DNA of 64,000 nt from Collinsella sp. An7 (GTDB lineage Bacteria; Actinomycetota; Coriobacteriia; Coriobacteriales; Coriobacteriaceae), in NCBI RefSeq assembly GCF_002159335.1, contig NZ_NFHP01000006.1, forward strand, positions 62,001 to 126,000, in the 5' to 3' direction. A program made the translations under genes and the position numbers. A model generated the notes under the pieces. That model saw only the letters and a program-made list of their open reading frames with translations, had not been told where the DNA came from and searched no databases. Of the stretch, positions 37,661 through 44,324 are shown in pieces (positions within the stretch are counted from its first letter, which is position 1; each line of letters begins with the position of its first letter).

Positions 37661-38353
37661 ATGAACAAGAAGGCAAAGCGCCGCCTCGTAGTTGTGGGCG
37701 GCATTGTGGTAGTGGCGATGCTCGTTATCGTGGCAATCGCCGGGTCGGGCGGCGCGGCGAGCTCGCTCAGCATCTCCGACATCATCTCGGGGGAGTACCG
37801 AGGCAAGAAGGTGCAGGTATCGGGCTCGGTGGTGGCCGATTCGCTCTCGAGCGAGGGCTCTACGGCCAGCTTTAAGATCCAGCCCGAGGAGGACGCCGAC
37901 GGCTCCAGCTCGAGCGGCGACACCCTCACCGTGCACTACGACGGCGCGCTCCCGGCAACGTTTGGCACGGGTGTTGTGGCCATCTGCACGGGCACGGTTG
38001 AGTCGGACTGCAGCCTCAGCTGCTCCGAGCTGGTGACCAAGTGCCCCTCTAAGTACGAGAGCGCCGAGGGGTCGCTGACCGTCAAGGGCCTGCTCGACCA
38101 GGCTGATAGTCTGGTGGGCGACGAGACCAAGGTTTGCGGCTACGTGCGCGGCGAAGTGCTCGCGGTTGATGCGCCTGAGGGGTACCGCTTTGTGCTCGAG
38201 AGCCAGGGCGAGACCATCCACGTTATCTGGGACGGCGGCATGGACGAGTCGGTGGGCGACGGCACGGCGCTCGTGGTCTCGGGCTCGCTCAACGCCGACG
38301 GCACCTTTACCGCAAGCGACCAGCCAGCCATCGACGAGGCGGTCAGCGCGTAG
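37661..38353 (+). CDS. ccmE: CcmE-type heme chaperone, CXXXY variant with a second OB-like domain
   Basis: A 230-residue protein. Lysine/arginine-rich start, one membrane anchor (about 9-28), then an outside OB-fold (about 37-125: GEYRGKKVQVSGSVV, HYDGALPATFGTGV). The heme-attachment site of classical CcmE is HxxxY; here it is CPSKY, Cys128 to Tyr132, the CXXXY form known from archaea and some bacteria that lack CcmH. A second segment (about 138-225; VKGLLDQADSLVGDETKVCGYVRGEV, HVIWDGGMDESVGDGTALVVSG) looks like another OB unit of the same kind, so the protein is about 70-80 residues longer than usual CcmE. It leads the ccmEFABCD cluster. Confidence 0.85.
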   Translation: MNKKAKRRLVVVGGIVVVAMLVIVAIAGSGGAASSLSISDIISGEYRGKKVQVSGSVVADSLSSEGSTASFKIQPEEDADGSSSSGDTLTVHYDGALPATFGTGVVAICTGTVESDCSLSCSELVTKCPSKYESAEGSLTVKGLLDQADSLVGDETKVCGYVRGEVLAVDAPEGYRFVLESQGETIHVIWDGGMDESVGDGTALVVSGSLNADGTFTASDQPAIDEAVSA

Positions 38354-38578
38354 CGACCGCGCGAGCTGGTCGAGGCCTGCGATGGCGGCTACGCTCGAAC
38401 GTGGGCGCGCCGCGTTGGTGGGCCCCGGTTGGGGGAGCGGGCTGCGGCTCGCGGCCGATCTGGCGAGCCGGTGCCAGCGCGTTCGCCCAGCGCCCCGCCT
38501 GGCCACGTCCTGCCCGCGCCTACCCCGCCCCGGCACTTCGCCTAACCCAAGGCAGCAACCCAAGGAGAGTCAGTACTC

Positions 38579-40729
38579 ATGAGTCTTATCGGCAACCTGT
38601 TGCAGGACGCGGCGCTCATCTCCACTATCGCCGCGTTCATCCCGCTCTTTGCGAGCGTCGCGCTCGCCCGCCGCGGTCGCACCGCGCAGGCAAGCACCGC
38701 CGCTAACGTGGGCTTTTTGCTCGTCTTTCTTAACACGCTGCTGCTCACGCTCTGCGTGGGGCTTGTGCTGGTGTGCTTCCTCACCGAGAACATGAGCCTC
38801 TCGTACGTGGCCACCAACTTTCCCCAGACCTCGAGCGCCCTCAAGCCGCTCTATCAGGTCTCGGGTGTGTGGGCCGGCCGCCAGGGGTCGCTGCTCTTCT
38901 GGACGTGGCTCATCTCGCTCTTTGCCTCGGGCTGCGCGTGGCGCCGCCTGCGCCAGACCGACGAGCTCACTTGCGCGGCGCTCGGCGTGATGGAGATCGT
39001 CATCATGCTCTTTTGCGGCGCGATGGTTCTCTCCGACGCCAACAACGCCTTTGTGGCCACGCCGGCGAGCGCCCTCAACGCCGACGGCACCCTCGTGGCG
39101 GGCATGTCCACGGGCATGAACCCGCTGCTCCTGCACTGGGCCATGGTCCTGCATCCGCCGGCGACCTTCATTGGGTACGCGGGCTGCACGGTGCCCTTTG
39201 CCTACGCCATCGCGGCGCTCATCACCGGCGACCTCTCGCCCCGCTGGGTCGAGCACGCCGACCGCATTGCCGTCTTTAGCTTTATCTTCCTCACCATCGG
39301 CATGGTGCTCGGCGCCGTCTGGGCCTACGTGGTGCTCGGCTGGGGCGGCTTCTGGGCGTGGGACGCGGTGGAAAACGCGAGCTTTATGAGCTGGCTCACG
39401 GCCATCGCGATGATCCATAGCTTTACGCTCTACCGTCGGCGCGGCGTCTTTAAGCGTTGGAGCCTCTTTGCCGCCACCATCACGTTTATCTTTGTAGTGC
39501 TCGGCACCTTTATCACCCGCTCGGGCCTGGTGCAGTCGGTGCACGCGTTTGCCGAGGACCCGGTCTCCACGTACTTCTTCCTGGGCATCATGGTCGCGGC
39601 GGCGCTCGCGTTTCTGCTGCTCATGCTCTACCGCAACGCGTCGCTTGCCGAGGACGACGAGATCGAGTCGCTAGCGTCCAAGAACGGCTCGTACTATCTC
39701 ACCGACCTCATCTGTATCGTGGGGGCGTGCCTGGTGGCGTACCTCACGGTGTCGAGCTCGCTGCCCACGTGGCTGCCGCTGGGCGGCCAGGTGGTCTCGG
39801 CCGGGGTCTACAACGCGGTGGCGCGCCCTGCAACGGCGATCTTTGGCCTGCTCATGGGCGTGTGCCCCATGCTCGGTTGGCGCAAGACCGACGGCGCGGC
39901 CTTTCGGCGGCACATGCGGGTGCCCGCGCTGATCGGCCTGGTGGTGTTCGCCGTTCTCATGGGCTACTTTGCGCTTGAGCTCGTGCCGGCCTACGACGCG
40001 GTCATGGCTGCGGGCGGCGACCCGGCGGCCACGCTCACCGAGCAGGGCCCGCGCGTATACTACTTTGCCGTGACGGTGGTTTCGCTCGCGGCGGCGGCGC
40101 TGCTGCTGGCCTCGTCGGCCTATCTGCTCGGCCGCGGCGTGCGCGCCCGCATGTCCAAGGGCGATGCCGCGCCGCTCGCGGTGATCAACCTCTTCCGCCA
40201 CTCGCCGGCGCAGGCGGGCGGCTATCTGGCGCACCTGGGTTGCGCAATCGCCCTCGTGGGCCTGGTGGGCTCGGGCATGTACGTGCAGGAGCAGACGGTG
40301 AGCGTTCCGGCCGAGGTGGGCGCCCAGGCGTCTTCGGGCGGGTACGTGCTCACGGTTACGGGTATCGCCGACGGCTTTGACGAGCAGGATAACCGCATCA
40401 TGGAGGTCGACCTTGCGGTGACGCCCGCGGCGGAGGACGGTACGGCGAGCGAGGGTGCCACTGAGCTCGGCGTGCTCACGCCCTCCATCGAGGTCTCGGC
40501 GTCTACCCAGCAGCAGACGCTCCACGCCGCGGTGATGAGCTTCCCCACCGAGGACCTCTTCGTGGCCTTCCAGGGGCTCAACGCCGACGGGTCGCTCTCG
40601 CTTTCCGTTAAGGTCAACCCGCTCATCATGTGCAACTGGGTGGGCGGCGCCATCTGCATCGCGGGTATCGTGCTCGCCTTCCTGCCGCGCCGCGCGACCC
40701 CGCTGCTGGCGGCTGATGACCGTGGCTAG
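38579..40729 (+). CDS. ccmF: Cytochrome c heme lyase CcmF
   Basis: A 716-residue polytopic protein with about 15 membrane helices. The WWD heme-binding domain reads WGGFWAWDAVENASFMSWL (near residue 256), preceded by the conserved PLLLHWAMVLHPPATFIGY (His) and followed by GTFITRSGLVQSVHAF. The final outside domain and last helix have family form. It attaches heme, delivered by CcmE, to CxxCH apocytochromes on the outer face. AAGGAGAG is upstream of ATG. The 3' end overlaps ccmA by 14 bases. Confidence 0.95.
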   Translation: MSLIGNLLQDAALISTIAAFIPLFASVALARRGRTAQASTAANVGFLLVFLNTLLLTLCVGLVLVCFLTENMSLSYVATNFPQTSSALKPLYQVSGVWAGRQGSLLFWTWLISLFASGCAWRRLRQTDELTCAALGVMEIVIMLFCGAMVLSDANNAFVATPASALNADGTLVAGMSTGMNPLLLHWAMVLHPPATFIGYAGCTVPFAYAIAALITGDLSPRWVEHADRIAVFSFIFLTIGMVLGAVWAYVVLGWGGFWAWDAVENASFMSWLTAIAMIHSFTLYRRRGVFKRWSLFAATITFIFVVLGTFITRSGLVQSVHAFAEDPVSTYFFLGIMVAAALAFLLLMLYRNASLAEDDEIESLASKNGSYYLTDLICIVGACLVAYLTVSSSLPTWLPLGGQVVSAGVYNAVARPATAIFGLLMGVCPMLGWRKTDGAAFRRHMRVPALIGLVVFAVLMGYFALELVPAYDAVMAAGGDPAATLTEQGPRVYYFAVTVVSLAAAALLLASSAYLLGRGVRARMSKGDAAPLAVINLFRHSPAQAGGYLAHLGCAIALVGLVGSGMYVQEQTVSVPAEVGAQASSGGYVLTVTGIADGFDEQDNRIMEVDLAVTPAAEDGTASEGATELGVLTPSIEVSASTQQQTLHAAVMSFPTEDLFVAFQGLNADGSLSLSVKVNPLIMCNWVGGAICIAGIVLAFLPRRATPLLAADDRG

Positions 40730-41597
40730 CGGCAAGGCGGCTGCGGCGGTTGAGTTCGGGGCGGCCGGGGCAGTGGGCGGGCAGGTTGCGGCGGGCCCTG
40801 TTGCCACGGCAGCCAGGCCGGTTGGAGCGGCCCCGGCGCCCACGGCGTCAGTCGGGCCAGCGTCCGCAACGCCTGCCGAGCCTGCCGTCGAAGCCCACGG
40901 CCTCACCAAGCGTTTTGGCGAGCGCCGGGCGCTCGACGGCGTGGACCTCGTGGTGCCGCGCGGAGCGTTCCTCTCCATCTTTGGACCTAACGGCGCGGGC
41001 AAGACAACGCTCCTTCGGCAGCTCGCCCTGCTCGCGCGCCCCACGGACGGCAGCCTGCGGATGCTCGGCGTCGACGCGCTCGAGGAGCCGGACGCCCTGC
41101 GCTCGCGCGTCGGCCTCATCAGCCATCGCCCGATGCTCTATGGCGACCTTTCGGCCGAGGAAAACCTTGCCTTCTTCTCGTCGCTTTACGCCGGTGAGCC
41201 AGACCGCGAACGCATCGACGCGCTCCTCTCCCTCGTTGAGCTCGACCATCGCCGCCACGACCCGGTACGTACCTACTCGCGCGGCATGCAGCAGCGCCTC
41301 TCCATCGCGCGTGCCCTCGTCAACGACCCTGAGCTCGTGCTCCTCGACGAGCCCTACTCGGGCCTCGATCCGCATGCCGCCGAGCTCTTTGACGAGCTTA
41401 TCGCCCGTGCGCGCGCCGAGCGGCCCGACCGCACGTTCATCATGGTGAGCCACGACCTCGAGAAGGGCTTTGACCTCTGCACGCACGCGCTCATCCTCGC
41501 GCGCGGCCAGGTGGTGCTCATGGCCGAGAAGGCAGGGCTCGACCGCGCTGCCTTCCGCGAGCTCTACCTCGCAACCGTCGGCATGGGGGTCGCATGA
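40716..41597 (+). CDS. ccmA: Heme exporter ATP-binding protein CcmA
   Basis: A 293-residue ABC ATPase. After an Ala/Gly/Pro-rich N-terminal extension of about 58 residues come Walker A GPNGAGKT (about 90-97), signature YSRGMQQR, Walker B LVLLDEPYSGLD and switch VSHDLEKG. With CcmB and CcmC it powers formation and release of holo-CcmE. The start overlaps ccmF; an internal start near the EAHGLTKRF segment cannot be excluded given the odd extension. Confidence 0.92.
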   Translation: MTVASGKAAAAVEFGAAGAVGGQVAAGPVATAARPVGAAPAPTASVGPASATPAEPAVEAHGLTKRFGERRALDGVDLVVPRGAFLSIFGPNGAGKTTLLRQLALLARPTDGSLRMLGVDALEEPDALRSRVGLISHRPMLYGDLSAEENLAFFSSLYAGEPDRERIDALLSLVELDHRRHDPVRTYSRGMQQRLSIARALVNDPELVLLDEPYSGLDPHAAELFDELIARARAERPDRTFIMVSHDLEKGFDLCTHALILARGQVVLMAEKAGLDRAAFRELYLATVGMGVA

Positions 41598-41644
41598 TGG
41601 CGGGTTTGCTCCCAGCGGAGCCCGGCGGCAAGCTCCGTCCTCAA

Positions 41645-41697
41645 ACAGTCCTGGCTCGCACGAAGGCGCCGCTGGCGCCTTCGGCTCGTGCGGAACT
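41645..41697. repeat. ACAGTCCTG stem-loop, copy c, inside the ccm operon
   Basis: ACAGTCCTGGCTCGC, hairpin GAAGGCGCCGCTGGCGCCTTC, then GGCTCGTGCGGAACT. It lies in the 265-base gap between ccmA and ccmB, which is unusually long for this operon; most of the gap seems to be inserted material. Confidence 0.7.
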
Positions 41698-41862
41698 GCG
41701 GGCGGAGCTTGCCGCAGGGGTCCTGCGCGTCGTGCCATTGGATGTTGAGCGCGCAAGATGCTGGAAGGTCCTCGGTCTCGCAAAGGCTTTGCCGGTTCTA
41801 CGGTTTTCCTTCCCGTCACGTGGGGACAAAGGAATCTTCTGCTGTGTAAGGTGGTGCGAGGC

Positions 41863-42588
41863 ATGAGCAGTTCTACCTGTGATTCCCGGAAGCCTTCTGG
41901 TTGGCGGCAGTATAAGGCGCTTCTTTTGAAGGACCTTCGGCAGGAGATTCGCACGCGCGAGATGCTGACCTCCATGGTTGTGTACGCGCTGCTGGTGCTG
42001 ACGGTCTACGGCGCGGCGCTTGCGCAGGTGGGCGACCGCATCCAGGTGGTCTCGTTTGCCGGCGGGCTGCTTTGGGCGCTCATCGTGTTTACGAGCCTGC
42101 TCGGGCTCAACCGCAGTTTTGCGCACGAGACCGAGTCGGGTTGTCTGGAGGGCATCCTTCTGGCGCCGGTGGACCGCGCGGTGATCTTTCTTGCTAAGGC
42201 GACGGCCAACCTGATCTTTCTCGCGGTGGTGGAGTGCATCACCGTGCCGCTCTTCTTTCTGTTCTTCCTCTCGGGCGCGGAGCTCGCCGCGACGACGCCC
42301 TACATCGTGCTGCCGCTCGTGGTGGGCACCGTGGGCGTTGCCGGCGTGGGCACACTCCTCTCCACCATGACGATCGACACGCGCGGTCGCGACGTGCTGC
42401 TGGCCATCCTGCTCATTCCGGTGATCTTTCCGCTGCTCTACGCCTGCGTTTCGGCCACGTCGGTGGCGTTTATGGGGGTCGAGGGCACGTTTGGCACGTT
42501 TTGGACCTCGCTCACCATGGCCGCCGCCTACGACGTGGTCATGATTGCGGCGGCGTGGGGGCTGTACGAATTCGCCGTCGAGGGCTGA
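41863..42588 (+). CDS. ccmB: Heme exporter permease CcmB
   Basis: A 241-residue membrane protein with six predicted helices, beginning KALLLKDLRQEIRTREMLTSMVVYALL, the CcmB N-terminal signature, and containing FAHETESGCLEGILLAPVDR. It partners CcmA. The ATG at 41863 follows AAGGTGGTGCGAGG; the open frame continues upstream into repeat DNA, so the later start is chosen. A 540-base gap with element G separates it from ccmC. Confidence 0.92.
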   Translation: MSSSTCDSRKPSGWRQYKALLLKDLRQEIRTREMLTSMVVYALLVLTVYGAALAQVGDRIQVVSFAGGLLWALIVFTSLLGLNRSFAHETESGCLEGILLAPVDRAVIFLAKATANLIFLAVVECITVPLFFLFFLSGAELAATTPYIVLPLVVGTVGVAGVGTLLSTMTIDTRGRDVLLAILLIPVIFPLLYACVSATSVAFMGVEGTFGTFWTSLTMAAAYDVVMIAAAWGLYEFAVEG

Positions 42589-42644
42589 CCGCCGCACCGA
42601 GGCACGCCACCTTGCCGCTCAATCGTCAGTCGCCGCACGCAGGC

Positions 42645-42797
42645 GCGCTCCCTCCTCTTTTGCGGCAATCTGGCGCACCTCGGCGCGGCGGCCGGGTAGG
42701 CGGGGCACCGCATCTCGACCCTCAAGCCGTCGCTTGCGTGCCTGAGCACGCGGCGCTCCTCTTTCGGGCCGACCTGCGGCACCTCGGTGCGGCGGCC
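42645..42797. repeat. Imperfect direct repeat, about 100-bp spacing
   Basis: GGCGCACCTCGGCGCGGCGGCC (split CTGGCGCACCTCGGCG and GCGGCGGCC) near 42670 recurs as TGCGGCACCTCGGTGCGGCGGCC near 42775, each preceded by CGCTCC-CTCTTT-like sequence. No gene is evident between ccmB and ccmC. Confidence 0.5.
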
Positions 42798-42871
42798 TGC
42801 GGGCTATGGGGGTGCCCCCTCGGCCTTTCTCCGATTTGTTTTGCTCCGAGCGGTCCGCGGACGCTGCCGGG

Positions 42872-43022
42872 TGTCAACTCAGGCCGGAAAACTGTGTAAG
42901 CGCTAAGGGACGTCAAGTAGACAGCTCAACATGAACAAAGAACATGCAGGTAGGAGCGTTGGCTGTTTTCGGGCTACTCTGCATATCTCAATCCTTGCAC
43001 AGTTTTCCGTCTTGAGTTGACA
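42872..43022. repeat. Long palindromic intergenic element G (29-bp arms)
   Basis: Arms 42872-42900 and 42994-43022 match at 26 of 29 inverted positions, 93 bases apart; two of the three differences keep G-U pairs in plus-strand RNA. Interior has CAAGTAGAC facing GGCTACTCTG. It interrupts the ccm cluster between ccmB and ccmC. Confidence 0.8.
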
Positions 43023-43131
43023 TGGACCGCCCGAGACCTCAACTCAATCCTCTATCGCCCTGTTTTGCGGCCGTTCGGATACACTAGTGCGCATGGCATG
43101 TTGACGCGAGATAACTTTAGAAAGGTGCAAC

Positions 43132-44130
43132 GTGGCGCAGAACAAAACCCCTGTCCAGCGGCGCGGCGAGTGCTGGGACCGGCTCGTGCCGGCCGCGCTC
43201 GTCATCGGCATTTTGCTGGTGATCGCCGATGTGGTCTGGACCTTTACCCTCGCCCCGCTGGTGCAGGGCGCGGTGCTCTCGGAGCCGGTGGTCATTGCCG
43301 GGCAGCAGGTCACCACCAAGCTCCTGCTCAGCCAGAAGATCTTCTACCTGCACGTTCCCGTGGCGGTGGCCTCGTTTGCCGTCATGGCGTTCGGCGCGTT
43401 TTGGGCGGTGCGCTTCCTCATGACGGGCGAGCGCCGCTACGACGGACGCTCCAAGACGGCCATGGAGGTCACGCTGGTCTTTGTGGTTGCCACCATGATC
43501 TCGGGCGACCTGTGGACGCGGTTTGAGTGGGGCGTCTGGTGGGTCTGGGAGCCGCGGCTTACCACCTACTTTATCCTGATGCTCCTGGTTATTGGCTACT
43601 TTATCCTGCGTAACGCCCTCGATGACCCCGAGCGCCGCGCGCGCTTCTCGGCGGTGTTTTGCATCGTGGCGTTTGTGGACGCGCCCATCTCGTTTTTGAT
43701 CACGCGTCTCGTGCCGAGCTCCATCCACCCGGTGGTCTTCCGCACCGACAGCGGCCTGCCCCCGATGATGCTCATCCCGTTTTTGCTGGGGCTGTTTGGC
43801 ATGCTGCTGGTGGCGTTTGCCCTCACGCGAATCGCGCTGCGCATCAACGGCGCCGCGCTTGAGGTCGAGATGCTCAAGGAGCAGCTCGAGGAGCAGGATG
43901 CCTGGCGCGAGCGCGCCGCGGCCGATGAGGCGCTCGAGCGCCTGCGCGCGGCCGGGGCAAAGGTTGCCGCCGGGGCGCAAGCGGCCGGATTGGAGTCTGC
44001 GCCCTCTGGGGACGTTGGTTCACATGACGCCGTTGCCGGCGCCGCGGACGCCTACAGAGCCGCAGCGCCCGCTCCCACCGCGCCCGAGAGCGCGCAAACC
44101 GCCCTGTCCGACACTCCCGAGGAGGACTAA
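43132..44130 (+). CDS. ccmC: Heme handling protein CcmC
   Basis: A 332-residue protein. Six helices in residues 20-245 hold the WWD motif WGVWWVWEPRLTTYFIL (near 133) and flanking histidines (FYLHVPVAVASF; SSIHPVVF). CcmC loads heme onto CcmE. The GTG at 43132 follows AAAGGTGCAAC. Residues about 250-332 are a charged helical tail (likely coiled coil, EMLKEQLEEQ) then Ala/Pro-rich, longer than in proteobacterial CcmC (about 240). Confidence 0.93.
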   Translation: MAQNKTPVQRRGECWDRLVPAALVIGILLVIADVVWTFTLAPLVQGAVLSEPVVIAGQQVTTKLLLSQKIFYLHVPVAVASFAVMAFGAFWAVRFLMTGERRYDGRSKTAMEVTLVFVVATMISGDLWTRFEWGVWWVWEPRLTTYFILMLLVIGYFILRNALDDPERRARFSAVFCIVAFVDAPISFLITRLVPSSIHPVVFRTDSGLPPMMLIPFLLGLFGMLLVAFALTRIALRINGAALEVEMLKEQLEEQDAWRERAAADEALERLRAAGAKVAAGAQAAGLESAPSGDVGSHDAVAGAADAYRAAAPAPTAPESAQTALSDTPEED

Positions 44131-44132
44131 CC

Positions 44133-44324
44133 ATGGATCCGATTCTTGCTGAGGTCTACTCGACCGTTCTGCCCGCTGCCCCGTTTGTAATCGCTGCCTA
44201 CGTGGGCATCTGGGTCGTGCTCGCGGTCTACGTGTTCGTTCTGTCGCGGCGCGCCAAGCGCACCGAGCGCGACCTCGATGCCCTCAAGCGCGCTCTCGAT
44301 GCCCGCGACCGCGAGCACGAGTAG
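44133..44324 (+). CDS. ccmD: CcmD-like small membrane protein
   Basis: A 63-residue protein with one membrane helix (about 14-36) followed by a basic, then charged helical tail (RRAKRTERDLDALKRALDARD). Size, topology and place directly after ccmC (2-base gap) match CcmD, which stabilises the CcmABC-CcmE complex. Sequence conservation in CcmD is low, so the call rests on context. Confidence 0.75.
   Translation: MDPILAEVYSTVLPAAPFVIAAYVGIWVVLAVYVFVLSRRAKRTERDLDALKRALDARDREHE

Follow-up and report, generated by a model that had tools for sequence, protein, structure and literature searches.

Among described Ccm systems, those closest to the locus considered here belong to System I*, in which the heme chaperone CcmE carries a cysteine at its attachment site. 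The Desulfovibrio system, whose CcmE has a single domain, functions in E. coli without CcmH, and a review of System I* found CcmH to be retained in about one third of cysteine-form cases (PMC3601427). Heme attachment in the archaeon Methanosarcina acetivorans requires a CXXXY CcmE (PMC9084895). E. coli holo-CcmE displays its heme motif on a flexible tail, the folded core being devoid of a heme site (PMC6204919).

A locus of this kind lies in a 64,000-nucleotide stretch of Collinsella sp. An7 DNA (the window), where the cluster ccmE-F-A-B-C-D spans positions 37661-44324, from the ccmE start to the end of the ccmD stop codon, with all genes on the + strand. An earlier sequence-only reading had reported a CPSKY motif (Cys128, Tyr132) in CcmE and this gene order without ccmH; family searches and exact coordinates confirm both. 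ccmE (37661..38353) encodes a predicted tandem-OB heme chaperone of 230 residues that matches Pfam PF03100 over two stretches (E 1.1e-23). It is followed by ccmF (38579..40729), whose 716-residue product contains the WWD motif and the Cytochrom_C_asm and CcmF_C domains of Pfam and NCBIfam (PF01578, 2.4e-30; PF16327, 5e-18; TIGR00353). The product of ccmA (40716..41597; PF00005, 2.2e-29) is clearly an ABC ATPase, although its 123 bits against TIGR01189 fall slightly below the cut-off of 131.6, and the real start of the gene may lie downstream of an alanine-rich leader. The start of ccmB (41863..42588; PF03379, 2.9e-27) was chosen by inspection. In CcmC (43132..44130; PF01578, 5.3e-22; TIGR01191) the equivalents of His60, His184, and WxWD/E are invariant among relatives, and the 63-residue CcmD (44133..44324) scores 32.4 bits against TIGR04391 (CcmD_alt_fam; cut-off 24) and slightly below the Pfam CcmD cut-off. 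CcmA, B, C, and F are all present at the locus, together with CcmD. The gap between ccmB and ccmC holds a 29-nt inverted repeat, 90% complementary and flanking 93 bases (window positions 42872-43022), which resembles a REP-type or small mobile element. A search for the CXXCH pattern also brought up a TGTCCCCxxTTGTCAC-like sequence, many inverted pairs of which, separated by 43 bases, are spread over the genome (e.g., G000:C11:228663-228720).

CcmE begins with a hydrophobic membrane anchor helix (residues 8-28, 37682..37744, +; DSSP assigns helix to residues 3-28 of the model). The first OB domain, OB1 (residues 34-127, 37760..38041, +), aligns with E. coli CcmE (1sr3) at a VIA-align Z of 12.7 over 88 residues (rmsd 2.1) and shows the pattern of the CcmE family, an OB fold with [HC]XXX[YF] right behind its last strand. 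That motif is CPSKY (residues 128-132, 38042..38056, +), the predicted heme-attachment site, which is invariant among 42 aligned relatives; its cysteine is kept in 86 of 86 relatives. OB1 has a second nearly invariant cysteine, Cys109 (37985..37987, +; 82/86 by column count), which is near-invariant in Coriobacteriales CcmE and missing from the deep branches L139 and L175. Past CPSKY the chain continues for 98 more residues. The full-length AlphaFold2 model has a pLDDT of 91 and a pTM of 0.62, a whole-chain value low enough to make the relative placement of the two halves uncertain.

The sequence-only reading had described what looked like a second OB unit after the heme site, and the analysis confirms it. 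Residues 134-230 alone (97 residues) match Pfam CcmE at 3e-7 (31.2 bits, cut-off 24.6), and the domain itself, OB2, is placed at residues 139-222 (38075..38326, +), with support from the Pfam match, profile searching, and modeling. A profile built from 45 C-terminal parts finds the CcmE structures 2kct, 1sr3, 1j6q, and 8ce8 at 1.3e-8 to 2.2e-7, and among structure sequences it finds no non-CcmE match below 0.1. OB1 aligns with the OB2 profile in hhalign at 96.6% (6e-10), and HMMs of the two domains retrieve each other. Because the whole-chain fold search covered OB1 alone, OB2 was modeled and searched separately; the C-terminal half does fold as an OB domain in AlphaFold2 (pLDDT 92.7, pTM 0.84), the outcome on which the earlier reading had made its proposal depend. 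The isolated model aligns with 1sr3 at Z 10.3 over 93 residues (rmsd 4.3), a score that other OB folds also reach, so that assignment to the CcmE family depends on sequence. NCBI's own CcmE models match OB1 only. The [HC]XXX[YF] motif is absent from all 86 second domains, none of which has a cysteine at the position equivalent to 130; OB2 would thus be a CcmE-like domain that is no heme chaperone by itself. Taken together, sequence comparison and structure models show that OB2 is another domain of the CcmE family, one from which the heme motif is missing. With such a domain appended, the predicted heme attachment point lies between two domains rather than on a free tail.

CcmH is missing from the genome as well as from the cluster. 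A search elsewhere in the genome, proposed with the original observation, returned no PF03918 match in the 2.37-Mb assembly (99.7% complete), while the controls E. coli, Caulobacter, Thermus, and Deinobacterium were positive; all 18 sampled ccmE-bearing Coriobacteriia were negative too. The earlier reading had also held that CXXXY CcmE goes with absence of CcmH, and this proves true in one direction. Every CcmH-less genome read has a CXXX[YF] CcmE (35/35, 29 of them outside Coriobacteriia), and every HXXXY CcmE came from a CcmH-bearing genome (16/16). The converse fails, since at least 11 genomes combine CXXX[YF] CcmE with CcmH, a count from CcmH-positive genomes that were sampled, not exhaustively read, for motif type. 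CcmH loss thus implies cysteine-type CcmE, but cysteine-type CcmE does not imply CcmH loss, in agreement with the System I* review (PMC3601427). Neither CcmH nor a histidine CcmE, the marks of classical System I, is found in Collinsella. As for System II (Ccs/Res), the only two PF01578 genes of the genome are the ccmF and ccmC of this cluster, with no CcsA/ResC-type synthase, and CcdA/DsbD (PF02683) is also absent from the genome. Judged by its gene content, the locus is Ferguson's System I* (CcmABCDEF, cysteine-type CcmE, no CcmH) with the addition of a clade-specific, apparently heme-less OB2.

A search of the genome for CxxCH proteins, a further check suggested at the outset, found a multiheme cytochrome c with a membrane anchor (L216:9770-13460; contig 16, near 76.4-80 kb). 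Its heme motifs run CX3CH, CXXCH, CX4CH, CXXCH, CXXCH, and among NCBIfam models it scores best against Cgr1 (98.6 bits), a weak likeness below the cut-off. Directly upstream of the gene lie those for a ferredoxin-like protein and for an aldehyde ferredoxin oxidoreductase, which scores 978 bits against PRK09849, and the unit may be an anaerobic respiratory one and the main client of the Ccm system. No NrfA or NrfH family match in the genome rose above cut-off; the search for cytochromes c relied on motif patterns and protein families, and its list may be incomplete.

Among the Actinomycetota sampled, the tandem arrangement is confined to one class. CcmE was present in 133 of 296 evenly drawn genomes of the phylum; all 18 ccmE-bearing Coriobacteriia among the 133 showed two CcmE matches, which fell in one ORF wherever both were listed or the locus was read. 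No tandem in a single ORF was found in the other 115, where double matches were separate genes. Beyond Actinomycetota, plasmid records were searched and yielded just one-domain matches from Bacillales. Gene order EFABCD is common to nearly all complete Coriobacteriia loci, the exceptions being L102, with no ccmF detected at the locus, and L092, where ccmC-ccmD lie upstream of ccmE-ccmF. In a domain tree whose resolution is limited by its size (101 rows, 105 columns), OB2 forms a single clade (100/100), as does OB1 (100/97), which is nested within the CcmH-less one-domain cysteine CcmE of Actinomycetota (96/96). On this tree, OB2 has a single origin. Mean pairwise dN/dS over 20 pairs is about 0.14 for OB1 and about 0.19 for OB2; OB2 thus evolves slightly faster and is maintained by purifying selection.

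How OB2 came to be joined to OB1 is a matter apart from its function. The best tree does not group the two domains, as would be expected had OB2 been acquired by fusion with a neighboring, diverged ccmE paralog rather than by duplication within the gene, and adjacent ccmE pairs in four other Actinomycetota (G323, G333, G100, and G297; loci L171, L172, L173, and L174) offer a conceivable precedent. Constraining OB1 and OB2 together, however, costs just 0.74 log units (p-AU 0.48), so that duplication within the gene stays compatible with the tree, and the degenerate copy in the adjacent pairs is the first, not the second; fusion is accordingly proposed only tentatively, at roughly one chance in three. 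The pairs themselves are an independent duplication: CcmH is kept in these genomes, the first copy has a degenerate motif (CPENY, CPDNY, CPDKL), and the second has CPSKY.

By homology with characterized systems, heme would be held covalently on Cys128 with the assistance of Tyr132; CcmE would be loaded by CcmCD and would pass heme to CcmF, which would join it to apocytochromes without CcmH. The part of OB2 is less certain. It would carry no covalent heme and would act as a docking or shielding module. In that capacity it would hold or cover the tethered heme, where Arg176 may lie close to a propionate, or assume part of the docking face for CcmC or CcmF, or do both. The holding or covering role is proposed because the attachment site lies on a linker between two OB domains and not on a free tail. 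Arg176 (38186..38188, +) is the invariant OB2 residue, present in 86 of 86 second domains. A docking role is suggested, without being proved, by an acidic pair: in E. coli, genetics puts Asp101 and Glu105 of CcmE in contact with CcmC (PMC6204919). The equivalent of Asp101 is acidic in 80 of 86 OB2 domains vs. 0 of 86 OB1 domains, that of Glu105 in 84 of 86 vs. 4 of 86, and the partner position 55 of CcmC is lysine in 70 of 70, as if the docking face had been transferred to OB2. The docking argument is weakened by the frequent occurrence of acidic-Gly turns in OB folds generally, and also by the one-domain CcmE proteins, which are mixed at positions 101 and 105, many having no acid at one or the other. 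Moreover, E. coli cryo-EM shows CcmE touching CcmB, not CcmC (PMC10457321), and the Asp101/Glu105 face may therefore form no stable interface. The explanation as a whole, a System I* whose CcmE consists of anchor, OB1, CPSKY, and a heme-less OB2 serving as docking or shielding module, is given a probability of about 0.55; that OB2 docks or shields, taken alone, falls somewhat short of even odds. A more specific version is doubtful, in which the heme segment is an internal hinge clamped by two OB domains, OB2 has taken over docking (to CcmC and/or CcmF) or shielding, and transfer corresponds to opening of the clamp.

The main competitors differ in what they ask of OB2. Least is asked if the domain is a passive remnant of duplication, a spacer or stabilizer with no specific partner. 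Its faster evolution relative to OB1 and the existence of one-domain relatives are in keeping with this, but a passive domain would hardly be present in every sampled ccm-bearing Coriobacteriia genome, show a dN/dS of about 0.19, and preserve an invariant arginine and core, and we consider the idea rather unlikely. The sequence-only reading offered two active roles. One was replacement of the CcmH contact: OB2 would occupy the place of CcmH on CcmF and position the apocytochrome or join in thiol exchange. Every sampled ccmE-bearing Coriobacteriia genome is without CcmH, and AF2Complex models put the N-terminal domain of CcmH and CcmE at the same place on CcmF (PMC8975832). Against this, a one-domain CXXX[YF] CcmE occurs in 29 Actinomycetota that lack CcmH and fall outside Coriobacteriia, from which it follows that OB2 is not needed for CcmH independence. 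The Desulfovibrio (PMC3601427) and archaeal systems likewise function without CcmH and with one-domain CcmE, and OB2 has no conserved CXXC or indeed any conserved cysteine. A contact of this sort is thus unlikely, and the need for it falls away. The other suggested role was heme binding, giving a CcmE with two hemes or with a noncovalent one. OB2 is a paralog of a heme chaperone domain and has a tyrosine at one column in 52 of 86 sequences. Yet the heme motif is lost from every OB2, and no cysteine or histidine column is conserved among the 86; the best cysteine column reaches 22/86, 55 domains have no cysteine at all, and 68 have no histidine, which makes a second covalent heme unlikely. The folded core of E. 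coli holo-CcmE, too, has no heme site (PMC6204919), and this part of the earlier reading is very improbable. A docking or shielding OB2 within System I* is consequently preferred.

The position of the heme site between two domains bears on how cysteine-bound heme is released and on how CcmH is dispensed with, and the tandem CcmE is a natural test construct in which a role of OB2 in loading, release, or transfer would be separable. Coriobacteriia are common in the human gut, and members respire drugs and dietary compounds through multiheme cytochromes, for which reason their maturation kit is also of practical interest.

Set beside the known systems, the Collinsella locus is nearest to the System I* of Desulfovibrio (PMC3601427), with which it shares a CPSKY-type CcmE, a CcmABCDEF core including CcmD, and the absence of CcmH. 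Desulfovibrio is without CcmH and CcmG; here it is CcmH and CcdA/DsbD that were not found. The Desulfovibrio CcmE is a single OB domain that ends soon past the motif, whereas that of Collinsella adds a second. The streamlined archaeal Ccm of M. acetivorans (CcmABCEF; PMC9084895) is alike by description in having no CcmH and a CXXXY CcmE, but Archaea are without CcmD and Methanosarcina has a split CcmF1/F2, while Collinsella has ccmD and a single ccmF gene. E. coli CcmE (1sr3, 8ce8) has the same membrane anchor, OB fold, and heme motif, at the same position after the first domain, and differs in having His130 in place of cysteine, a flexible C-terminal tail in place of a second domain, and a requirement for CcmH. 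Relative to that tail, the internal linker that bears the motif in Coriobacteriia would alter the geometry of loading and release. The one-domain CXXX[YF] CcmE proteins of other Actinomycetota (e.g., L191-L200) are the closest kin of OB1 in the tree, are CcmH-less, and show the same ccmE-ccmF order; they extend only 3-17 residues past the motif, vs. about 95 in Coriobacteriia. No published account of a tandem CcmE was found in the openly accessible literature, to which the search was confined, in agreement with the earlier impression that the second unit is undescribed. The two-domain CcmE is thus a new form within the known System I*.
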